Assembly (NCBI RefSeq): GCF_027571385.1
Contig: NZ_CP085636.1
Coordinates: 6,179,001-6,243,000 of the forward strand
Direction of reading: 5' to 3'
DNA from: Shewanella sp. MTB7
GTDB taxonomy: Bacteria > Pseudomonadota > Gammaproteobacteria > Enterobacterales > Shewanellaceae
DNA length: 64,000 nucleotides
The first letter of the stretch is position 1. Each line of letters opens with the position of its first letter. The notes beneath the pieces are model-generated. The model was not told the DNA's origin. It saw only the letters and a list, made by a program, of their open reading frames with translations, and did not search any database. A program made the translations under genes and the position numbers. Shown here one piece after another: positions 3,728 to 63,670 of this stretch.

Positions 3728-4939
3728 ATGAAAAATAGATTAAACCTTGATGTAAACATAGCAGCTCGAAAAAGGATCCAGCTAATTTTAGATTTTTTTC
3801 CTCATTTTTATATCTCTTTTTCGGGTGGAAAAGACTCGGGAGTATTACTCAACTTAGCCATAGAGGAAGCTAGACTCCGTGACAGACTTCCTATCGACGT
3901 CTTAATTATTGACTTAGAAGCTCAATACACACACACGATTGAGTATATCCATAGGATGGTAAAACGCCAAGAGATCACCCCCTATTGGATCTGCCTCCCT
4001 ATTAGTCTACGCAACGCTACATCACAATTCCAACCTAAATGGATTTGTTGGAATCCTAGTGAAAAAGAACGTTGGCTTCGTCCTTTACCTCAACATTATT
4101 CAGTAATTAATGATATTCATTTTTTCCCTTTTTTCCAACATGGAATGGAGTTTGAAGAGTTTGTCATAGAATTTGGCGCTTGGTATCAGCATCAAAAACA
4201 AACGCGCTGTGCCTGTTTAGTTGCAATTCGTTCAGATGAATCCCTAAATCGTTACCGAACGATTAAAAATAAAAGAAAGGAAAAATTTGGTGGATTAGCA
4301 TGGACAACGCTCATTACTAATAACCTGTATAACGCTTACCCTATTTATGATTGGCATGTACAGGATATTTGGACGGCTAATGGTAAATTTGGTTGGGATT
4401 ATAATTCTATTTATGACTTGATGCACTTAGCCGGTGTTAGCTTGGCTCAGCAACGTCTATGTCAGCCATTTGGAGATGATCAGCGCAAAGGTTTATGGTT
4501 ATATCAGATCTTGGAACCCCATACTTGGCAAAAGCTCGTAGAACGCGTTGAAGGATGTAACTTTGGGGCTAGATACAGTAAAGTTCAAGGACATATCTTA
4601 GGCTATTACAGATTTGAACTTCCTGATGGGTACACTTATAAACAATACAGTAAATATTTGCTAAACAGCATGCCCCCTCATTTAGCAGAACACTACCGCA
4701 CCCGAATTTTTAAATTCCTTTTATGGTGGCGGAAAAATGCCAAAAATAATGGAATTTCTGCCATCCCTGATTTTGGTGACAAGAAACTTGAAGCACAGAA
4801 AAAAATCCCCAGCTGGCGTCGTATCTGCAAAGTGTTAATTAAAAATGATTACTGGTGCAGAGGACTCTCATTTGGACAAAACAAAAGCATTACACAGCAT
4901 TATGTTGACCTGTATGGTCAATATATTACTAAGAAGTAA
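3728..4939 (+). CDS. ybdN: YbdN/IbrA-like PAPS-reductase-fold protein (DUF3440 type)
   Basis: A 403-residue protein with a PP-loop motif SGGKDS (residues 32-37), the adenylate-binding loop of the PAPS reductase/ATP-sulfurylase-like fold, followed by an aspartate-rich LIIDLEAQY segment. The remaining about 300 residues, rich in Trp and Tyr, look like the YbdN/DUF3440 family. In E. coli the related IbrA acts with IbrB in activating immunoglobulin-binding protein genes; the biochemical reaction is not known to me. The partner gene starts two bases after the stop codon, so the two are cotranscribed and probably translationally coupled. Its fold is shared with DndC of DNA phosphorothioation, but no dnd genes are present. 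Confidence 0.85.
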   Translation: MKNRLNLDVNIAARKRIQLILDFFPHFYISFSGGKDSGVLLNLAIEEARLRDRLPIDVLIIDLEAQYTHTIEYIHRMVKRQEITPYWICLPISLRNATSQFQPKWICWNPSEKERWLRPLPQHYSVINDIHFFPFFQHGMEFEEFVIEFGAWYQHQKQTRCACLVAIRSDESLNRYRTIKNKRKEKFGGLAWTTLITNNLYNAYPIYDWHVQDIWTANGKFGWDYNSIYDLMHLAGVSLAQQRLCQPFGDDQRKGLWLYQILEPHTWQKLVERVEGCNFGARYSKVQGHILGYYRFELPDGYTYKQYSKYLLNSMPPHLAEHYRTRIFKFLLWWRKNAKNNGISAIPDFGDKKLEAQKKIPSWRRICKVLIKNDYWCRGLSFGQNKSITQHYVDLYGQYITKK

Positions 4940-54787: not shown

Positions 54788-55528
54788 TTAGAAATGGTCT
54801 ATGCTAAATACCTTACGTAACAGTTGGACCTGTCTACGACTCACATCAATCTCTTGTCCATTACACATATGCACTTGTAGACTCCCAGATGCCATCCCCT
54901 CCTCAATTTTTTTGATTTGATCAACACGCACAATATCGCTACGACTGGCTTTAAAAAAAAGAGTCGGATCGAGTCTTTTCTCAACTTTAGACAAGGAGAT
55001 ATGAAGATAGGACTTTCCAGAGTCAGAATAAACAGCAACATGATTCCCCAAAGATTCAAAACGAAAAATCTCATTAATTCTGACAATTTTATAATCAGAG
55101 CCAAATTTAAGCAGCAGACCATGATTATCCGGTAAAAACTGAGAATGGTCAGACTCAGTTTCATCATGGGTCTCTTGTATAAGACGCACTTTATTCAGAA
55201 CCGCTTCGAGTCGATCAGGCATTATAGGTTTAACAATGTAATCAAAAGCATTCAACTCAAAGGCATCAACTGCATGCTCACTAAAGGCAGTACAAAATAC
55301 TAGTTGAAACTGCTGAGATTGGGCCTGTTTCGCAAACCCAAGTCCATCCATCTCTGGCATCTGTATATCAACAAAGACTAAATCAACCGCTGTTTTTTTT
55401 AATATTTCAAGCGCCTGATAACCCTCTTCAGCCTCACCAACAATCTCAATGTCAGCATGCTTACTTAGCAGTCGGGTGAGCTCAATGCGAGCTAAATATT
55501 CATCATCAACGATTAACACTTTTAGCAT
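54788..55528 (-). CDS. LytTR-family response regulator
   Basis: A 246-residue regulator with a receiver domain (acidic pair D8/D9, phosphoacceptor D54 in VFVDIQMPEMDG) and a C-terminal LytTR DNA-binding domain (KIVRINEIFRFESLGNHVAVY ... LFFKASRSDIVRVDQIKKIEEG, in parts). It resembles BtsR (YehT). It overlaps the histidine kinase gene by 23 bases and is the last gene of the peptide export unit. LytTR proteins bind direct repeats; three matching tandem repeats lie in this cluster, making it the likely activator. Confidence 0.93.
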   Translation of the reverse strand: MLKVLIVDDEYLARIELTRLLSKHADIEIVGEAEEGYQALEILKKTAVDLVFVDIQMPEMDGLGFAKQAQSQQFQLVFCTAFSEHAVDAFELNAFDYIVKPIMPDRLEAVLNKVRLIQETHDETESDHSQFLPDNHGLLLKFGSDYKIVRINEIFRFESLGNHVAVYSDSGKSYLHISLSKVEKRLDPTLFFKASRSDIVRVDQIKKIEEGMASGSLQVHMCNGQEIDVSRRQVQLLRKVFSIDHF

Positions 55529-56642
55529 AGGGAAGCTCCATTGAAACCGTAAAAAGCTTATTATCTAACGCACTTGAAAACGTATATTGCCTAGCAAACA
55601 TCAATTCAAGTCGCTTTTTGATGTTATGTAATCCAACTCGAGTACCTGGCTGGTTTTTGGGGGAGTGAACAGTATTCGTCACGGATAATCGCCACATATT
55701 GGCTGTCACAACCTGACTTTCTATACAGATAAAGCCAGGCTTACTACTGGTTGCAATACCATGTTTAATAGCATTCTCAGCTAACGTCAACAAGGTCAAT
55801 GTCGGAATTGATTCTCGTAAAGTACTCTCATCAAGATCGACGATTAACTCTAATCTTTTATCAAAACGAACTTTTTCAATAGATAGATATTTAGAGGTCA
55901 GTAACCAGTCTTGTTCTAGCGTTGACTGAATTTTAATTTGTGATTGCATCTGACTTCGTAATAAATCAGATAAAAGAGTAAGTACTTCAGCAGCTTTTTC
56001 TTGATCTGCAAAAATTAATGCTCTAATACTATTTAACGTGTTAAACAGAAAATGTGGGCTTAATTGATTGGTCAACTGTTGAATTTGACTCTCATTAACC
56101 TGTACCTGCAACTCTTTCTTATTTTTATGGAAATGCCAGACTAGATAAGCAACACTCCATAAAAACAGAGTCGCAAATGATTCTAAAGTGCCAATAATAG
56201 CAATGGCTAACAAGGTCACTTCTCCACCTATCTTGCCCTTTTGGGTAACGACTTGGATCTGACTGATGTCAGTACCTTTTAAGAAGCTCATCTGTCCCAT
56301 ACTGTAAGAGAGTAGAAAATAGATAAAAGAGATAAAGGCGACATACAACAAGCCTTTCAATGTACTGCGTATATCTACACTTGAACCAATCAAGTTCATT
56401 CTTAGATAGGGTCGAATCAAACAGTGACATACCCCAACTAATAACGCTGCTTCTAAAAACGAGCGAAGAATAATATCATTATAATGACGCTCTGGAACCT
56501 CTATTAATGAGAGCATCACAGACCAAGTCAAAATAAAATGCAGCCAAAACATAATAAGCATGGCTGCACGGTAGCTTTTACTTGTATTACGGCTATTTAA
56601 ATAGAAATTGAAGAGCCACGTCGACTCAACAGCACTACTCAT
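55506..56642 (-). CDS. LytS/YehU-type sensor histidine kinase
   Basis: A 378-residue kinase starting at ATG 56642, which overlaps the permease stop codon by eight bases (ATGAGTAG), indicating translational coupling; a longer frame runs into the permease gene. Four or five transmembrane helices occupy residues about 25-170. The His_kinase domain follows, with phosphoacceptor H197 in QLSPHFLFNTLNS, and a GHKL ATPase with NAIKHG and GTRVGLHNIKKRL. No extracellular sensor domain is seen, so the signal is probably sensed within or through the membrane, or via the transporter. Confidence 0.92.
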   Translation of the reverse strand: MSSAVESTWLFNFYLNSRNTSKSYRAAMLIMFWLHFILTWSVMLSLIEVPERHYNDIILRSFLEAALLVGVCHCLIRPYLRMNLIGSSVDIRSTLKGLLYVAFISFIYFLLSYSMGQMSFLKGTDISQIQVVTQKGKIGGEVTLLAIAIIGTLESFATLFLWSVAYLVWHFHKNKKELQVQVNESQIQQLTNQLSPHFLFNTLNSIRALIFADQEKAAEVLTLLSDLLRSQMQSQIKIQSTLEQDWLLTSKYLSIEKVRFDKRLELIVDLDESTLRESIPTLTLLTLAENAIKHGIATSSKPGFICIESQVVTANMWRLSVTNTVHSPKNQPGTRVGLHNIKKRLELMFARQYTFSSALDNKLFTVSMELPYAKSVNR

Positions 56643-57888
56643 AGCGTAAGGCATCAATAGGATCCAGTTTTGACGCTTTAATTGCAGGAGCAATACCAAA
56701 AACAACACCGATGGTTGCACTAAAACCAAGCGCAAGCCAAATCGCCCATGTCGGCACTGCTACAGAACCGATAACAGGCATAAACATAAAAACAACTCCC
56801 GCTAAAAGGTAACCTAATAAAATACCAATCACTCCACCGAAAAGCGCTAAGATACTGGCCTCAATTAAAAATTGAGTCAGAATAGTTCTGGAAGTAGCCC
56901 CTAAGGCCTTTGCTATCCCAATTTCTTTTGTTCTCTCTGTTACAGAGACAAGCATGATGTTCATAATCCCTATGCCACCAACAATTAAACTAATACCAAC
57001 AACTCCAGCTGCAACATAGGTAATAGAGTCAGTAATATCACTAAACTGTTTACGTGTTTTTGCTGCAGTTTCAAATTCAAAAAAATCTTGTTCAGATTCG
57101 GTTAATCGATATTTCTTTCTTAATATGTTACGAATTCTGTCATTTAATAGCGTTAAGTCGACACCAGATTCTGGGCGAAAAATAATATCAATGTTATTGG
57201 TGCGATCGGTTCCATTTAATGAACGTATTGTACTGAAAGGCGCGATAATATAGTTATCTTGATCGAATCCGAATAAACTTCCTCGGGTCTCAGCAACACC
57301 GATAACTTTAAACCACTCTTCCCCCAATAATATAAACTCACCCACGGGGTGAAGTGGAAGGTTTAACTTTTTTAACACAGAACTACCTACAAATACAACA
57401 CGCCGACGTTTTGCATCATCAATATTGGAAAGGAAACGACCTTCAACAGGAAATATATTAACCACATTTTGATAATCACTTTCAGTGCCTATCACTTGAG
57501 TATGAGTGCTATATTGACCAAAGCGAGCTTCAGAACCAAAACTAAATGCGCGCATTTTTGCCACAATATCTTTAATTCCCAATATCTTACTTTTAATTAA
57601 TAGGTAATCATCATAAGTAAGTTGGTTAGTCACACCTAACATCTCCAACTCTGTATTGGTATGAGCTTTTATCGTAACCATGTCACTGCCTAAGTCTTTA
57701 AGCTGATTATCGACTCCTTGACTCAATCCCTCCATGATGGAAACCACGGTAATGACAGATGCAACACCAATAATAATACCTAGGGTCGTCAGGGCACTTC
57801 TAAAACTATGAGCAAAAATAGACTCTACCGCGGCAACAGAACCTTCATAGGCGCTATGGAATATTCGATTTAACATGCTAGCCCCCAA
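56635..57888 (-). CDS. MacB-like ABC transporter permease
   Basis: A 417-residue FtsX/MacB-type permease: one N-terminal helix (HSFRSALTTLGIIIGVASVITVVSIMEG, in parts), a periplasmic domain of about 220 residues, and three C-terminal helices, with EIGIAKALGATSRTILTQFLIEA between TM2 and TM3. MacB-type pumps export peptides or virulence factors using an adaptor and TolC. Unlike E. coli MacB, the ATPase is a separate gene. It starts inside the end of the ATPase gene (19-base overlap). Confidence 0.93.
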   Translation of the reverse strand: MGASMLNRIFHSAYEGSVAAVESIFAHSFRSALTTLGIIIGVASVITVVSIMEGLSQGVDNQLKDLGSDMVTIKAHTNTELEMLGVTNQLTYDDYLLIKSKILGIKDIVAKMRAFSFGSEARFGQYSTHTQVIGTESDYQNVVNIFPVEGRFLSNIDDAKRRRVVFVGSSVLKKLNLPLHPVGEFILLGEEWFKVIGVAETRGSLFGFDQDNYIIAPFSTIRSLNGTDRTNNIDIIFRPESGVDLTLLNDRIRNILRKKYRLTESEQDFFEFETAAKTRKQFSDITDSITYVAAGVVGISLIVGGIGIMNIMLVSVTERTKEIGIAKALGATSRTILTQFLIEASILALFGGVIGILLGYLLAGVVFMFMPVIGSVAVPTWAIWLALGFSATIGVVFGIAPAIKASKLDPIDALRYE

Positions 57889-58589
57889 TTGACTCTTTCC
57901 TTGGAAACATCGGACGCCAGCAACCCATCGACTAACCTAATCTCTCGTTGACAATGATCTGCAATATCTTGTTCATGTGTAACTAATACAACCGTCTGTC
58001 CCTGCTCATGCAGTTGGTCAAAAAGAGCCATGATCTCATGAGTTGTCTTACTATCTAAATTTCCAGTCGGTTCATCGCCTAATAATATCTCAGGCTCGGT
58101 GACCAATGCCCTGGCGATAGCAACTCTCTGTCTCTGACCTCCTGACAACTGACTAGGAAGAGAGTCGATTTTATCACCAAGCCCCACCTTTTCTAGCGAA
58201 TTCAATGCCCGACGCTTTCGCTCAGCTGATGACATAGAGCGATATTTTAATGGGTGAATAACATTTTGTAGAACACTCTGGCGAGGTAACAAATTAAAAC
58301 TTTGGAAAATGAACCCTATTGAATAATTTCTAACATGAGCCAATTGATCCTCATCATAATTAGCCACATCTTGGTTATTCAACTGATATGCGCCAGCTGT
58401 AGGGGTAGATAAGCAACCAAGAATATTCATCAAGGTTGACTTTCCCGACCCCGAAGGGCCTGTAATAGCAACAAACTCATTATTCGTGATGGTAAGATCA
58501 ATCTCTTGCAATGCCATATATCCTTCATCACCGATTTGATAGGTTTTGCTTACGCCTCTTAGTTCTATTATGGGGTTAGATTGATGCAT
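57870..58589 (-). CDS. MacB/LolD-like ABC transporter ATPase
   Basis: A 239-residue ATPase starting at ATG 58589, with GGAGAG upstream (a longer frame to 58622 runs into the adaptor gene). Walker A is GPSGSGKST (44-52), the signature is LSGGQRQRVAIARAL, and Walker B is ILLGDEPTGNLD. It has no C39 peptidase domain, so the transporter does not itself cleave double-glycine leaders. It forms one unit with the adaptor and permease. Confidence 0.94.
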   Translation of the reverse strand: MHQSNPIIELRGVSKTYQIGDEGYMALQEIDLTITNNEFVAITGPSGSGKSTLMNILGCLSTPTAGAYQLNNQDVANYDEDQLAHVRNYSIGFIFQSFNLLPRQSVLQNVIHPLKYRSMSSAERKRRALNSLEKVGLGDKIDSLPSQLSGGQRQRVAIARALVTEPEILLGDEPTGNLDSKTTHEIMALFDQLHEQGQTVVLVTHEQDIADHCQREIRLVDGLLASDVSKERVNWGLAC

Positions 58590-59733
58590 GATAGCTCTCC
58601 TTATGCTCCACCTCAGTACCATTCTTCAATGCTTTCACTTGACGACTAGGCCCAACAATGACCAACTCCTTATGAGCCAGACCAGACAAAACTATCTGCT
58701 CAGTGTCCGTAGACAAACCAAGCTGTATATCACGTTTGACAGCTTTATTGTCTTCAACAACCCAAACAAAATTGACCCCATCAAGCTGTTTTACTGCCGC
58801 TATTGGTATGATTAATTCAATACCGGAGCGAGCCAAAACAATCTCAGCACGACAGCTCATTCCGGGGTACACAAGTTGTCCCTTCTGAAGAGTCACCTCA
58901 ACCTTGTAGTAGAGTCCTTTGTTGACGCTATCCTTTTTTGCCGAAGTGCTGATAGAGGATATTTGGCCCAAGGACGCTATTTGTGGTGTTGCAGCAGCAA
59001 AAATTTCAACTTCCTGACCAATCTCAATGTTGGAAACATCGGCTTCATCAACTCGGATCTGAGCAACATAAGAGTCGACATCTGCCAAGGTCATTAAAGG
59101 GCTACCAACAATGTTGGTTGTACCAACTATCACCGTTTCCCCCTCTTTTATATCAACCGTGGAAATCAACCCATCTATTGCAGCAAGAAAACGAGATTGA
59201 TCTAAACGGTTCTGGCTTTGAGCTAAGATAGCTTTATATTGTTCTAGTCCCTGTATTGCGGCTTTCACATTAATCCTCGCCACTTTTAATTGACTCTGTA
59301 ACTGTGCAGCAGTGTCCTGATCAGTTAGCCCTTGACCCAGCAACTTCAGGTACTGTCCTGCTCGACGAGCGGCTTCATTGGCTATTTCCTCTAATCGTTG
59401 AATCTCAATTAACTGAATTTCAACAGCGGCGTGAGATCTACGAACTTCAGCAATAAAGATCTTTGGATCCAGCTCCATAAGCAGTTCGCCTTTCTTTACA
59501 AGCTGCCCTTCCTTTACATAAACACGGTTAACAATCCCTGTAACTTCAGATCGTATTTGGATTTCACTAGCAAACCTTAAATTACCTGATGCCAAAATTG
59601 TTTCATTAATTTGATCTTCTGAAACAACATGGGTATCAACAGTAACGCCATCGGATATCGATTTCTCTTTACTAATAAAAATCAAAAGAGAGACGCTCAG
59701 TAAAACAAAAGTAAATGACAATATTTTTTTCAT
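58576..59733 (-). CDS. MacA-like periplasmic adaptor (HlyD/RND family)
   Basis: A 385-residue adaptor starting at ATG 59733 (MKKILSF, with GGAG upstream). There is one N-terminal helix, then a lipoyl/barrel-sandwich domain (SEVTGIVNRVYVKEGQLVKKGELLMELD, in parts), a coiled-coil hairpin (about 100-185) and beta-barrel and membrane-proximal domains. It would link the MacB-like pump to an outer-membrane TolC channel, which is not encoded here. It is cotranscribed with the pump. Confidence 0.92.
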   Translation of the reverse strand: MKKILSFTFVLLSVSLLIFISKEKSISDGVTVDTHVVSEDQINETILASGNLRFASEIQIRSEVTGIVNRVYVKEGQLVKKGELLMELDPKIFIAEVRRSHAAVEIQLIEIQRLEEIANEAARRAGQYLKLLGQGLTDQDTAAQLQSQLKVARINVKAAIQGLEQYKAILAQSQNRLDQSRFLAAIDGLISTVDIKEGETVIVGTTNIVGSPLMTLADVDSYVAQIRVDEADVSNIEIGQEVEIFAAATPQIASLGQISSISTSAKKDSVNKGLYYKVEVTLQKGQLVYPGMSCRAEIVLARSGIELIIPIAAVKQLDGVNFVWVVEDNKAVKRDIQLGLSTDTEQIVLSGLAHKELVIVGPSRQVKALKNGTEVEHKESYHASI

Positions 59734-59764
59734 CTTAAACTCCAAGCTCCCATTAAGAAGCACA

Positions 59765-60472
59765 CTATATAAACAACAGCCAAGTACCAAAAAAAACCAC
59801 ATATGGAAAAATAGAGATAAATGTCGCCATTGCCAATTTCATGTTAAAACACTTTCTAAGACCTAGAATCGAAATGACTATCGACCAAACCAAGAACAAG
59901 TTCAAAGATGTATACAATCCGTATGCAGTATCTGTCACACTCTGATTGGAAAATAACTGCTCAAAAGAGGCATAGTGAATTAACGAAAGAGGTAGATCCG
60001 ATGCTGAAGAGCTCAAAAAAAGAAAGGAGAACCCGGCATAGTTGACGATCCAAGGTAATTGGCACCACGAGATAAAATAAAACCAATCTCTAAAGGTAAA
60101 CCTGCTCATGCCAATACTGGAAATCTTACCTAAAAGAGTAAATAAAAGACTTAAGCCGATAACAGTGAAAAGGTGACCAACAATAGTCACACCGCCCATG
60201 AAGACCCAAGTATACGGTAACGTTTTCGCCATCATCTCAAGTGCAATCTCTCGTTCCTGAATACTCAAATCACCAACTTGAGCCAGCTGTTGTGCTAACA
60301 ACCATTCATCTGACATACCACCAAAAAATAGATAGTAACTAGCCAAAATCAATGCAAACAGAATCACTAGAACAATACTGCTTTGCCGCTGGTTATATTC
60401 AAATCTTTCAAATAAAGCACTCGGAGCAACAAATGCGTCCAGTACTGTGTTCACTGCTGTAACGGTTGTCAT
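59765..60472 (-). CDS. YIP1-family membrane protein
   Basis: A 235-residue protein with about five transmembrane helices and a short cytoplasmic N-terminus (NTVLDAFVAPSALFERF), as in bacterial YIP1-family proteins. It is the first gene of the export-regulator unit (YIP1, MacA-like, ATPase, permease, kinase, regulator), with a tandem-repeat box 69 bases upstream. Its role is unknown; producer self-protection or help in export are possibilities given the context. Confidence 0.8.
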   Translation of the reverse strand: MTTVTAVNTVLDAFVAPSALFERFEYNQRQSSIVLVILFALILASYYLFFGGMSDEWLLAQQLAQVGDLSIQEREIALEMMAKTLPYTWVFMGGVTIVGHLFTVIGLSLLFTLLGKISSIGMSRFTFRDWFYFISWCQLPWIVNYAGFSFLFLSSSASDLPLSLIHYASFEQLFSNQSVTDTAYGLYTSLNLFLVWSIVISILGLRKCFNMKLAMATFISIFPYVVFFGTWLLFI

Positions 60473-60540
60473 AACAATTCTCTCTCAACTAAAAGGACAT
60501 AAAGGCAAAATAACAACAATTAACTCACACTATCCCTGAA

Positions 60541-60574
60541 AAGTGATAAGCGGTGACTTAAAGTGATTTTCGGT
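60541..60574. promoter_or_regulatory. Tandem direct repeat (LytTR-type box) before the YIP1-export unit
   Basis: AAGTGATAAGCGGT (60541-60554) and AAGTGATTTTCGGT (60561-60574) are direct repeats with a 20-base period. Read on the coding strand they contain ACCGCTTA, close to the ACC(G/A)CT(C/T)A half-site I recall for E. coli BtsR. A possible -10 (TTATTT, complement of 60508-60513) lies about 28 bases downstream. Confidence 0.75.
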
Positions 60575-60749
60575 AAATTTTTACTTGGCGGGGGATTCGA
60601 AGATAAACAAACAGAAGAGGAGTAATTTCAATGCGCATTAACTACATGCACTAATGATAAGAAAATGGATGACATGACTGGTGATGCAGGAAGTTAATAA
60701 GCGCCTAAATGGTATAAAATAAACTTAAACGCTTACTAAGAATATATAA

Positions 60750-60962
60750 TCAAAATTTCACCTTATCTCGGCCTGAAATAGCCCACACTAAAATACCAAA
60801 CCAAACAATCCAAGAGATGCCAGCTGGAATGTTGGCAGCCATAATCTTGCCTTTATGTTGACGGTTAAGCAGTACAGCTATAATTGATGGCAAAAAGTAG
60901 ATAGCGAAAAGTAGTGGTAACAATAAAACCATTTTCCCTGAACCTAAATTTGAAATAAACAT
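60750..60962 (-). CDS. Superinfection-immunity family membrane protein
   Basis: A 70-residue protein with two hydrophobic segments: VLLLPLLFAIYFLPSIIAVL (about 12-31) and IPAGISWIVWFGILVWAISG (about 45-64). The pattern LPSIIAVLLNRQHKGKIMAANIPAG (in parts) matches the Imm_superinfect family, named for phage T4 Imm, which stops DNA entry of related phages. Here it lies 30 bases after the cupin-like gene in a peptide gene cluster, so it may instead protect the producer. AGAGGAT supports the start. Confidence 0.82.
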   Translation of the reverse strand: MFISNLGSGKMVLLLPLLFAIYFLPSIIAVLLNRQHKGKIMAANIPAGISWIVWFGILVWAISGRDKVKF

Positions 60963-60992
60963 AATAGTATCCTCTTATAGTAATGATATTAA

Positions 60993-61913
60993 TTAAACTA
61001 AACCTAACCTTGATTGATGTTGGCGACTAAGTTCAGAGACAAGTTTAGAGTTTGATTTAATGCCTAAAGACTCTAACAACTCTGACTTTTTATCTGCATA
61101 TTGTTCAACGGACACTAATGCTTTTATAGCTCTAAACCTATCCTCTTCAATGCAAGTGCTTCTTGCATAACGTTCCATAAACTCACGGCTTCTATCATTC
61201 CTCATCTCAGCGATAAGGTGCAGAATAGGCTCAACAGACGAATTAGATGTAACTGTACTACTTGCTATTTTTGTACAGCTCTCATTAAACACATATTGCG
61301 GGCGCAAATGGGAGAACATTGTTGATGGCATAATATTTAAAGAAACAGACAACTCATCTGCTGGTAGTTGATTATGTACATCGGTATAAGCTCGATATAG
61401 CATCACCTCACCTTCCGTTAAATTCTTTCGTTCAATAAAACGTAAGTCTACTGGTTCACCAGGATAGCCAACGACATCATAAAAATCATATTCGTAATAA
61501 TCACTGGCATAACCTGGTCCTGTGTAACCCGAAGTCAAAAAACTGAAATTATGATCATGTGGCACATTGTAGAAGAAGGACTTTTCACCCGATGTTGTGA
61601 GTAGCGGATCATGTTTTGCCAACCAGATGTTCGCTCTCATAAAGAAATTAACACCTTTACTCGCAGGCTTTAGCATAATGACCTGTGGAGTATATTTATT
61701 AGTTTGCTTCTGAACATCACAATGCTTCTCAAGCTCTGATATTAAAATTTCCGGTAAAAAGTTTTTGTTATTGTTCAATTTTTTTAAAAGTGGAGCCACT
61801 GTTTGAAAACTTTCGTTATCTGCAGAGTCAAACTTACTTTCAACGAGCTGTTCATAGCAGTCTTCTAACTCAATTGACTCTGTAATATCATTCAAATCAA
61901 ATTTTAACGGCAT
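60993..61913 (-). CDS. Unknown protein with cupin-like metal-site pattern
   Basis: The start is placed at ATG 61913 (MPLKFDLNDI), with AAGGA eight bases upstream, giving 306 residues; the frame reaches 61979. No family was recognised with certainty. The middle of the protein resembles a cupin: VPHDHNF (H119, H121), then E141, then a second strand pair with GEVMLYRAYTDVHNQ (H180), i.e. an HxH...E...H set that could hold Fe(II). The C-terminal third is helical and similar in style to that of the 322-residue neighbour. I infer a possible oxygenase acting on the cluster's peptides; this is untested. Confidence 0.6.
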   Translation of the reverse strand: MPLKFDLNDITESIELEDCYEQLVESKFDSADNESFQTVAPLLKKLNNNKNFLPEILISELEKHCDVQKQTNKYTPQVIMLKPASKGVNFFMRANIWLAKHDPLLTTSGEKSFFYNVPHDHNFSFLTSGYTGPGYASDYYEYDFYDVVGYPGEPVDLRFIERKNLTEGEVMLYRAYTDVHNQLPADELSVSLNIMPSTMFSHLRPQYVFNESCTKIASSTVTSNSSVEPILHLIAEMRNDRSREFMERYARSTCIEEDRFRAIKALVSVEQYADKKSELLESLGIKSNSKLVSELSRQHQSRLGLV

Positions 61914-62027
61914 GACAATATTCCTTATGTTTGTTGGTGTAGAGTAGAGAAACACGCTAATAAAATGTTTATCTGTCAAATTGGATTAACTAAAGACTAT
62001 CAATCATTTCTGACATCGATTGTTGAA

Positions 62028-62061
62028 AAGTGAAAATCGGTCTATTTAAAGGATTTCCGGC
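62028..62061. promoter_or_regulatory. Tandem direct repeat (LytTR-type box) before the cupin-like gene
   Basis: AAGTGAAAATCGGT (62028-62041) and AAAGGATTTCCGGC (62048-62061) are imperfect direct repeats with a 20-base period, the same layout as at 60541 and 63637. They lie between the 322-residue gene and the cupin-like gene, about 115 bases upstream of the latter's start. Confidence 0.65.
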
Positions 62062-62082
62062 AAACAATTTGATTAAAAATGA

Positions 62083-63051
62083 TTATGATGCCTTTTTTAA
62101 CAGTTGAGCCTGTACCAGCTCCCAGGTTTGTTCTGCTGCATAGCGAACTTCTTCATGAGCATCAAAATTAGCCATATACTCTAATTCATCTAAAACCATC
62201 AATGCATCAAGTCCGAGTAATTGCTGCATTGCATACCAACGAATGTAATGTTGCTCATGCGATAGGAACTTTTTAATTGTAGGAATCGCTTTAATACAGT
62301 TCATTGCTTTTAAAAGTGAAATATGTAATTGCACTCTTGAATCAACTTCATCTGAAGGGTTTTGAAATTTCAGTTGATAATCATAAGCTGAAAACATTAA
62401 ACTTAATGGAGACTTGTTTTCCTTCAATTCCAAAGATATAGCAATTGCATTATCACTTGAAGATTCGAACATATAAGTTTCATTCCACTTCTTATAGATA
62501 AGGTCGCCATCATTAACTTTGGTTTCACCGGTAGATTTACACTTAGCCTCTTGCAAGTTTTCAATTGGAACTTCATGAGTCCAGTTTGATATACTCATAT
62601 TGCCGGACTTTATAAAATAAGTTATTGTTTCTCTTCCATAGAACGAAATCCCTCTTTCTTTAAGATTTATTTTACTTTGAGATTTATATTTATTAAGCAA
62701 GCTACTGTTTATTATATCAATACTCAAATCAAAACAATCATTACTATCTAGGATTATTCTTTGAGCAAAAAAGGTGGAGTGACCAACTATTGGATATACA
62801 TAAAAGTCATCAGCCTTCATGTTACTCATCCCTTCCAACAATATACTATTTATAACATCTTGAGCATTACCTTCTATAATACTTGATATCCTACCAATAT
62901 CGATTACATCAACATCAAACATAGTTTCTTTTAACTTTTGTACAAGCTCAAATTTCAGGTTGGTTTTCCGACTCTCCTCCATACGACTAACCGTATTACT
63001 CCAGCTTGAAGGGTTACTTATAAAGCTCTCTATTTTCTGGTTAAACTTCAT
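62083..63051 (-). CDS. Unknown protein with HEAT-like C-terminus
   Basis: A 322-residue protein with AAGGAAGAG upstream of its ATG. Residues about 80-225 are beta-rich and end in a segment like a small-molecule or metal cupin strand pair (GDLIYKKWNETYMFESSSDNAIAISLEL, in parts). Residues about 240-315 form two or three HEAT-like helical repeats (AIPTIKKFLSHEQHYIRWYAM, LDELEYMANFDAHEEVRYAA). I do not recognise a described family. It follows the three peptide genes by 86 bases and is probably cotranscribed, suggesting peptide binding, modification or protection. Confidence 0.65.
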   Translation of the reverse strand: MKFNQKIESFISNPSSWSNTVSRMEESRKTNLKFELVQKLKETMFDVDVIDIGRISSIIEGNAQDVINSILLEGMSNMKADDFYVYPIVGHSTFFAQRIILDSNDCFDLSIDIINSSLLNKYKSQSKINLKERGISFYGRETITYFIKSGNMSISNWTHEVPIENLQEAKCKSTGETKVNDGDLIYKKWNETYMFESSSDNAIAISLELKENKSPLSLMFSAYDYQLKFQNPSDEVDSRVQLHISLLKAMNCIKAIPTIKKFLSHEQHYIRWYAMQQLLGLDALMVLDELEYMANFDAHEEVRYAAEQTWELVQAQLLKKAS

Positions 63052-63137
63052 CTTATCTCTTCCTTGTAAGTAATATTAGGGAGGGGGGAGCCAACTTGCC
63101 TACACCGAATAAAGCAAGTCAGCGACCCATTTCGCCA

Positions 63138-63257
63138 TTAATGTACGATCAATACAACCATAATACCGATACAAATTGGACCACCAACGACTTGTAGTTG
63201 AGATGTTCCAGCCACACCAAATTGTGATTTCAATTCTACTGTTTTTTCAATTTTCAT
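63138..63257 (-). CDS. Double-glycine peptide, tandem copy 1
   Basis: A 39-codon gene with an AGAGGTG ribosome-binding site. The product begins MKIEKTVELKSQFGVAGTSQ, continues LQVVGG and ends PICIGIMVVLIVH. The first 31 residues are identical in all three copies, although the DNA differs at synonymous sites. Charged and polar residues fill the first half; the part after Gly-Gly is hydrophobic with one cysteine. This looks like a leader plus core of a secreted peptide. It is too short for most gene finders. Confidence 0.85.
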   Translation of the reverse strand: MKIEKTVELKSQFGVAGTSQLQVVGGPICIGIMVVLIVH

Positions 63258-63279
63258 TTTACACCTCTTAATTATTCTA

Positions 63280-63399
63280 TTAGTGCATTATCAATACAAC
63301 CATAATACCGATACAAATTGGACCACCGACTACTTGTAATTGAGATGTTCCCGCCACACCAAACTGTGATTTTAATTCTACTGTTTTTTCAATTTTCAT
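63280..63399 (-). CDS. Double-glycine peptide, tandem copy 2
   Basis: A 39-codon gene, 142 bases upstream of copy 1, with the same AGAGGTG ribosome-binding site. The product differs from copy 1 by a single residue near the end (tail PICIGIMVVLIMH), while eight other codons differ silently. This pattern shows selection on the protein sequence. Confidence 0.85.
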   Translation of the reverse strand: MKIEKTVELKSQFGVAGTSQLQVVGGPICIGIMVVLIMH

Positions 63400-63418
63400 T
63401 TTACACCTCTTAATTAAT

Positions 63419-63538
63419 CTACGCTTGAATTAATATAACCATTACACCGATACAGATTGGGCCACCGACCACTTGCAGTTGAGATGTTCCAGCCACACCA
63501 AATTGTGATTTCAACTCTACTGTTTTTTCAATTTTCAT
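63419..63538 (-). CDS. Double-glycine peptide, tandem copy 3 (first of the operon)
   Basis: A 39-codon gene, 139 bases upstream of copy 2, with an AAGGAG ribosome-binding site. The first 31 residues equal those of the other copies; the tail is PICIGVMVILIQA, with four amino-acid changes and eight silent codon changes relative to copy 1. It is the promoter-proximal copy, with a LytTR-type tandem box about 100 bases upstream. Confidence 0.85.
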   Translation of the reverse strand: MKIEKTVELKSQFGVAGTSQLQVVGGPICIGVMVILIQA

Positions 63539-63636: not shown

Positions 63637-63670
63637 TATGATAAACGGTAAAAAAAAGTGATTAACGGTT
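63637..63670. promoter_or_regulatory. Tandem direct repeat (LytTR-type box) before the peptide genes
   Basis: TGATAAACGGTA (63639-63650) and TGATTAACGGTT (63659-63670) are direct repeats with a 20-base period, matching the boxes at 60541 and 62028. On the coding strand the half-site reads ACCGnnnATCA. The LytTR regulator encoded at 54788-55528 is the likely binding protein. Confidence 0.75.

Follow-up and report, generated by a model that had tools for sequence, protein, structure and literature searches.

The stretch of DNA analyzed here (the window) comprises 64,000 nucleotides of the Shewanella sp. MTB7 genome (NZ_CP085636.1, positions 6,179,001 to 6,243,000) and carries a cluster of small peptide genes associated with two proteins of predicted cupin fold. 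The cluster is encoded entirely on the minus strand and, read from 63538 down to 54788, comprises three peptide genes, genes encoding a 322-residue protein, a 306-residue protein, a PF14373 protein, a Yip1 protein, an adaptor, an ATPase, and a permease, and finally those encoding a kinase and a LytTR response regulator. The original prediction, made from the sequence alone, described three tandem 39-codon genes with ribosome-binding sites followed by these downstream genes, and every feature that it named was located at the position it gave.

The three precursor-like peptide genes, each encoding 39 residues, occupy positions 63419..63538, 63280..63399, and 63138..63257 of the minus strand and are preceded by the ribosome-binding sites AAGGAG, GAGGTG, and GAGGTG, respectively. 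The encoded peptides end with ...VVGGPICIGVMVILIQA, ...VVGGPICIGIMVVLIMH, and ...VVGGPICIGIMVVLIVH, and the differences between them are confined to the last eight residues. In the strain's own genome, matches to the peptide were found at three places, all within the cluster, and the same peptide was found in 3 of the 99 genomes searched (own genome included), in 3, 6, and 6 tandem copies, the other two genomes belonging to the same genus; related peptides occupy the same position in other genera. Comparison of all pairs among 20 Shewanella peptide copies from four genomes gave an in-frame ratio of nonsynonymous to synonymous differences (pN/pS) of 0.18, that is, strongly synonymous change. 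Between-genome pairs showed a pN of 0.073 and a pS of 0.390, and the shifted frames of the same pairs gave ratios of 0.68 and 1.48. Judged by this substitution pattern, the 39-codon open reading frames (ORFs) behave as coding genes. Tandem copies number three in the window, five in S. nanhaiensis (locus L016), six in both S. hanedai (L017) and a further Shewanella genome (L097), and five in both Rheinheimera (L018) and Ferrimonas (L019). The copy ending with ...IQA opens the series in the window (63419-63538) and closes it in S. nanhaiensis (L016:7517-7636) and in L097 (reverse complement 4457-4576), a shift of place that hints at rearrangement among the tandem copies.

In an alignment of 35 diverse peptides, the N-terminal half is common, with LPxLxTxxGxxGS in most members and ELKSQFGVAGTSQ in Shewanella, and the C-terminal half is divergent and hydrophobic. 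Two core types dominate, VGGxxC (GG) and DD. Among the best 120 of 155 peptides obtained in a large protein search, a list ranked by score and skewed to the VGG-like type, 110 contain [V/T]xGx(1-2)C, nine are DD-like, and one is neither; all 110 VGG-like peptides contain the cysteine. The VGGxxC type carries GG before the hydrophobic tail, a place at which GG is missing from the DD type. Typing of the core at 53 loci classified 28 as DD-only, 17 as GG-only, six as other, and two as mixed. The single cysteine, constrained in the GG type, fits an enzyme of the thiol-dioxygenase fold. A short gene-encoded precursor with a conserved leader and a variable core thus lies beside a putative modifying enzyme, whose role is proposed from its predicted fold, as expected of ribosomally synthesized and post-translationally modified peptides (RiPPs).

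The 322-residue protein (62083..63051, minus strand), referred to here as the partner, is predicted to adopt a cysteine-dioxygenase-like cupin fold with a helical (HEAT-like) C-terminus. The 306-residue cupin (60993..61913, minus strand) is predicted to have the same CDO-type, thiol-dioxygenase fold; its longest ORF encodes 328 residues from a TTG codon, and the ATG at 61913 is the start used in relatives. Histidines 119, 121, and 180 are conserved in all 23 cupin members compared and form the only fully conserved histidine columns, a pattern which at the sequence level corresponds to a putative three-histidine metal site; the partner lacks this triad. The two proteins are twins by predicted fold rather than by sequence, their profiles aligning in hhalign only over the C-terminal half (probability 11%, E 0.0028). 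The C-terminus of the partner matches HEAT_2 weakly, below the Pfam cut-off; a HEAT domain is precomputed for one partner homolog, and 'HEAT repeat domain-containing protein' is the name given in some records. When cupins from GG loci (16) were compared with those from DD loci (21), one type-specific column was found (235), outside the metal triad. Weak matches of the cupin to PDEase_II, DUF693, HEAT_2, and single-member hits were dropped, being below cut-off, singletons, or of E near 0.1. Several public records of the cupin family (Salinimonas, Allosphingosinicella, and Sphingomonas) bear the name 'transposase', which looks like a propagated mis-annotation. The original prediction treated both proteins as unknown; this predicted thiol-dioxygenase-fold pair is the heart of the system, and the predicted folds move the inference from a hydrophobic peptide that is exported and sensed to one that is enzymatically modified.

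Conservation of the peptide, partner, and cupin as a trio was analyzed starting from 160 relatives of the 306-residue protein confirmed in a one-genome-per-species collection, of which the best 80 loci were retained. A homolog of the 322-residue protein was called within 500 bases of the cupin ORF in 79 of these; in the remaining locus, L082, the cupin lies after the partner, reaches the contig end, and was detected by tblastn only. A peptide matching the family profile was present upstream of the partner at 73 of the 80 loci, with six more recovered as stop-to-stop frames, and the sole locus lacking a peptide (L035) is cut by the contig start. By ORF calls, the order peptide, partner, cupin is complete at 78 of the 80 loci, the remaining two being cut by contig ends, which supports a conserved peptide system. 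In a set of 87 loci, the commonest arrangement (39 cases) has the cupin starting 12 bases before the last base of the partner, the corresponding distance in the window being +170. The peptide profile was trained on these 87 loci, among which L017/L096 and L020/L099 are identical sequences; run over their 11,430 short frames, it returned 119 hits at E<=1, of which 114 preceded a called partner, three others lay upstream of a pair whose partner had a mis-called start or went unrecognised (L033, L102, L103), and two weak ones lay elsewhere (E 0.57 and 0.64). Sixteen extra loci (L100, L105-L119) were also searched; L118 repeats L102, and the remaining 15 have no sequence in common with those used for training. 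At 12 of these 15 independent loci a peptide was found at E<0.1, each time ahead of the cupin and not beyond the point where the partner begins.

The cupin was detected in 15 genomes of a 398-genome phylum sample (10 of 212 genera) and in six genomes of a 394-genome order sample; the family is a large one, with 2241 cupin homologs collected along with the 155 peptides from one profile search. In the mobility search, two plasmids and no phage record were matched. On these sequence comparisons, the cluster is common to distant Proteobacteria.

The genes surrounding the trio are less widely shared. Downstream of the cupin, a 70-residue membrane protein (60750..60962) matches PF14373 (Imm_superinfect) with 42.4 bits (cut-off 27.9), followed by a Yip1/YknW-like membrane protein of 235 residues (59765..60472; PF04893, 47.2 bits, cut-off 28.6), a periplasmic HlyD-type adaptor (58576..59733; TIGR01730, 143 bits, and PF13437), a separate ABC ATPase of the MacB/LolD class (57870..58589; PF00005), a MacB/FtsX-type permease (56635..57876; PF12704, MacB_PCD, and PF02687), a LytS-type sensor histidine kinase (55506..56654; PF06580, His_kinase), and a LytTR response regulator of 246 residues (54788..55528; PF00072, Response_reg, and PF04397, LytTR), all on the minus strand. 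Counted from the starts used in relatives, the adaptor, ATPase, permease, and kinase comprise 385, 239, 413, and 382 residues, their longest ORFs extending to 59802 (408 residues), 58622, 57888, and 56735, respectively. The gene set of a YknWXYZ/MacAB-type pump, i.e., Yip1, adaptor, ATPase, and permease, is therefore complete in the window. NCBIfam cut-offs were not reached by the Yip1 protein for YknW_fam (NF052650; 28.8 against 110 bits), the adaptor for MacA (98.4 against 342), or the ATPase and permease for MacB (244.9 and 204.8 against 966); the MacB scores are lower because that model spans both domains in one protein, which are split between two genes here.

Ten distinct gammaproteobacterial loci (the window, L016-L021, L026, L034, and L097) were compared with 75 others, namely 72 of the best-80 set and L101-L103, some of them short contigs, using the same six queries. 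Homologs of the kinase, the LytTR regulator, and Yip1 occur at all ten gammaproteobacterial loci, the ATPase and permease at nine (not L020), and the adaptor inside the cluster at eight, the hit at L020 and L021 being a distant neighbor. Among the 75 other loci, Yip1, adaptor, permease, and kinase were found at none, the regulator at one, and the ABC ATPase at nine. Co-occurrence with the LytTR and MacAB genes, which the original prediction suggested testing, is thus seen at the gammaproteobacterial loci; since the peptide, partner, and cupin stay where the accessory genes are absent, the pump and the LytS/LytTR pair are not core. A plasmid locus of Alteromonas stellipolaris (L121) contains the trio, with two peptides, as well as the adaptor, ATPase, and permease. 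At the cut-off applied, Yip1, the kinase, and the regulator gave no hit there, and neither of the latter two lies within 9 kb. The PF14373 protein has homologs at six other scanned loci, two of which are the same S. hanedai contig, exclusively in Shewanella, Rheinheimera, and Ferrimonas clusters, and its Pfam match makes an immunity protein possible. In the distant Alteromonas variants (L026:9963-11925 and L121:9875-11899), a second ABC pair follows the cupin, with ABC_tran in both and ABC2_membrane_3 in L026, the only one tested for it; both loci also carry two unlike peptides before the partner, one of EPV type and one VGG-like.

Three putative LytTR-type boxes were identified on the minus strand. 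Box 1, ACCGTTAATCACTTTTTTTTACCGTTTATCA (63639..63669), precedes the peptide genes and box 3 (60544..60574) the Yip1/ABC/LytTR unit, both with 0 mismatches to ACCGNNNATCN10ACCGNNTNTCA, and box 2 (62031..62061), ahead of the 306-residue cupin gene, has one mismatch in the window and an exact ACCG pair at three other Shewanella loci. Each of the three has a counterpart at the equivalent position in S. nanhaiensis (L016), L097, and L096 (same contig as S. hanedai L017), so that ACCG direct repeats, with the repeat unit ACCGnnTaTCAC and a 20-bp period, precede all three units in four Shewanella genomes, the window's included. The boxes delimit three transcription units: peptides and partner; cupin and 70-residue protein; and Yip1, adaptor, ATPase, permease, kinase, and regulator. 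A response regulator with a LytTR domain is thereby accompanied by putative direct-repeat sites before its target units, in agreement with the regulation proposed at the outset, and the direct-repeat form corresponds to that of LytTR sites. In the strain's own genome, ACCGNNNATC-N10-ACCGNNTNTCA has two exact matches, both in the cluster (boxes 1 and 3), and one-mismatch matches at box 2 and at two places elsewhere. The bare pattern CGGT-N16-CGGT, in contrast, gave 84 genome matches against 318 for its reversed control, and since the control exceeds it, the bare pattern alone means little; the longer pattern with <=2 mismatches gave 12 matches against 14 for the reversed control. The weight of the sequence evidence is therefore carried by the 0-mismatch level and the conservation in relatives only, the uniqueness of the pattern being no independent test because it was drawn from these sites. 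In other genera, 5 to 14 box hits were found per locus with one mismatch allowed, and the sole exact pair of A. indica (L020) lies inside the partner gene; single boxes before the first peptide in Rheinheimera (L018), Ferrimonas (L019), and A. indica are suggestive only.

Taken together, these sequence comparisons and fold predictions favor a RiPP-like system, with the core of the peptide being modified by the two cupins, a reading to which we assign a probability of roughly 0.6, with modification, export, and activity all being inferred. The leader would be recognized by the partner/cupin pair, the two proteins acting together, with the peptide brought into position by the partner and/or the leader, and the cupin, with iron at its three histidines, would oxidize the core. 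In the VGGxxC type, the obvious target would be the single cysteine or the adjoining peptide bond, and the processed tail of about 11-13 hydrophobic residues may be membrane-active. In Gammaproteobacteria, the Yip1/adaptor/ABC pump (YknWXYZ/MacAB type) would export the product or clear it from the membrane, helped in some genera by the 70-residue PF14373 protein, and LytS/LytTR would switch on all three units through the ACCG direct repeats, probably by positive feedback, raising production and pump together. A fuller version, for which the odds seem only slightly better than even, is that of an undescribed Pseudomonadota RiPP class in which a three-histidine iron cupin and its catalytically dead twin form an obligate heteromer oxidizing or cutting short hydrophobic precursors, with chemistry differing between the VGGxxC and DD types, and with a YknWXYZ-like pump and a LytS/LytTR feedback circuit added in Gammaproteobacteria. 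If the cupin pair does modify the peptides, a three-histidine cupin of the thiol-dioxygenase fold with a dead twin would join the enzymes acting on ribosomal peptides, would come with naturally paired substrates in the next gene, and would account for a family of proteins annotated as 'transposase' in some public records. Since the core is small (peptide, partner, and cupin), the chemistry is directly testable by co-expression.

Several results weigh against modification by the cupin pair. DD-type cores contain no cysteine, so cysteine oxidation cannot be the sole reaction and the reaction cannot be identical across the whole family. Pfam CDO_I (PF05995) was matched by 0 of the 23 cupin family members, and no CDO_I match was present in the strain's own genome; an hhalign comparison of the cupin with a CDO_I protein from Shewanella places HDH opposite HDH and DVH opposite DIH, at an insignificant probability of 0.5% (E 0.12). 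The best Foldseek matches of the cupin reached a TM-score of about 0.41 by query length and 0.6 by target length. No dedicated leader protease was found within the cluster. Sphingomonads have no evident dedicated exporter, given the ATPase homologs at 9 of the 75 other loci and the absence of the permease there, and an exported toxin is therefore not obvious in these bacteria. Finally, three of the 15 test loci (L100, L116, and L117) gave no hit to the peptide profile at E<0.1, although at L116 and L117 the expected position is occupied by short hydrophobic ORFs.

Overcalling is common with short ORFs, yet chance ORFs beside unrelated genes can practically be dismissed as an explanation, considering the in-frame pN/pS of 0.18, the gene order conserved at 78 of 80 loci (contig ends truncate the remaining two), and the recovery of the peptide at 12 of 15 loci outside profile building. 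The peptides could instead be unmodified double-glycine microcins or bacteriocins, with the leader cut after GG, the 13-residue tail exported by the MacAB-like pump, and the 322/306 pair serving as immunity or accessory proteins. The GG before the hydrophobic tail of the VGGxxC type, the proximity of a pump, a PF14373 protein, and a LytTR pair to the peptides, and three C39-peptidase matches (PF03412) elsewhere in the genome speak for this, but the ABC domain spans residues 38-186 of 250 in the ATPase, which leaves no room for a C39 domain, and none was listed by Pfam. The trio is moreover kept at the 75 other loci, none of which has a Yip1, adaptor, or permease homolog, the DD type lacks GG in the corresponding place, and three conserved histidines of metal type point to an enzyme, which together render an unmodified bacteriocin rather unlikely.

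A similarly small chance is left for the peptide being not a substrate at all but a membrane anchor, inhibitor, or sensor subunit of a cupin pair that acts on a small molecule (e.g., in a thiol or O2-sensing role). Its near-universal presence beside the pair, the predicted fold, which is that of small-thiol dioxygenases, and the lack of an evident exporter in sphingomonads are in keeping with such a role, whereas tandem copies and the combination of a conserved N-terminal with a variable C-terminal half resemble precursor peptides and not a fixed subunit. A peptide pheromone, sensed by the adjacent LytS kinase and inducing its own genes through LytTR, would account for the kinase and regulator at 10 of 10 gammaproteobacterial loci and for the boxes before every unit in four Shewanella genomes. 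It is improbable, as the kinase is found at 0 and the regulator at 1 of the 75 other loci, neither lies near the A. stellipolaris plasmid trio, and no feature connects the kinase with the peptide in preference to envelope stress; such sensing can, however, be compatible with modification of the peptide by the cupin pair.

Neither the peptides nor the partner nor the cupin are covered by any Pfam, NCBIfam, or PADLOC model, and PADLOC returned two weak hits, both to the receiver domain of the regulator, which were rejected. Among the outcomes that the original prediction had named as counting against it, those that could be tested did not occur, since the genes are found together in relatives and none of the three components is covered by a family model. 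Neither did Pfam or NCBIfam RiPP models match the scanned peptides, partners, and cupins; RiPP recognition elements (RREs), which many RiPP pathways lack, were not searched for structurally. Among the literature matches listed, covering titles and the beginnings of abstracts and mostly excluding subscription journals, no description of the system was found. The cluster is RiPP-like and possibly represents a new class.

Comparison with known systems reveals partial similarities. The 306-residue cupin has no significant sequence match to thiol dioxygenases (CDO, 3-mercaptopropionate dioxygenase, and ADO/PCO; Pfam CDO_I and PCO_ADO) and differs from them in its extra C-terminal helical domain, its triad-less twin, and the adjoining peptide gene. 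As in RiPP pathways that use an oxidative metalloenzyme with a partner, e.g., MNIO (DUF692), a short leader/core precursor lies beside a putative metal oxygenase and a separate partner, but the catalytic protein here is a predicted three-histidine cupin of thiol-dioxygenase type and the partner is its cupin twin. The ATPase matches the Dar exporter model NF038007 (DarD) with 216.3 bits (cut-off 375). Darobactin is a Gram-negative RiPP with an adaptor/ATPase/permease exporter; unlike darobactin clusters, the cluster described here has a different precursor and no radical SAM protein among its genes. The nearest printed case found is PbsQ, a cupin-like hydroxylase which, according to the available portion of its report, acts on ornithine (Orn) in an MNIO pathway and, in contrast to the trio, constitutes one tailoring step of a larger cluster (PMC12257519). 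The available text on Bacillus YknWXYZ describes an efflux pump guarding the cell from its own toxin, SDP, a 42-residue peptide (PMC4887032). The same four genes, encoding Yip1, adaptor, ATPase, and permease, are found here, and by sequence the make-up of the pump resembles YknWXYZ at least as well as a MacAB exporter, although the Yip1 score is far below the YknW_fam cut-off and the genes sit with LytS/LytTR and a peptide-cupin module. Given the self-protecting role described for YknWXYZ (PMC4887032), shielding the producer may be as much a function of the pump here as exporting the product. LytTR-controlled peptide systems, as far as the accessible part of one report describes them (e.g., PMC6193735), share the kinase/LytTR pair and the direct-repeat boxes before peptide genes and differ in the repeat unit and its period, the Gram-negative host, and the presence of a cupin module.

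Variants of the trio were also observed. In other members of the order (L101, L102, and L103), shorter, diverged cupins of 233-249 residues follow a short hydrophobic peptide ORF (36-40 residues), that of L101 being missed by the peptide profile; the family is therefore broader than the 306-residue group. Three sphingomonad loci (L025, L028, and L037) contain two partner-cupin pairs about 3 kb apart. At some sphingomonad loci (L022:6323-6907 and similar), a sigma-70-type factor (PF04542/PF08281) and a second gene precede the peptide, each in six loci of the clustering, and perhaps stand in for LytS/LytTR. On a plasmid of Vibrio sp. ED002 (L122, 4066-5622), a very diverged cupin of 225 residues (25% identity) follows a 243-residue ORF in the place of the partner; no clear peptide precedes the pair, a 59-residue ORF (Pfam: none) follows the cupin, and Tn3 transposase and recombinase genes lie nearby.

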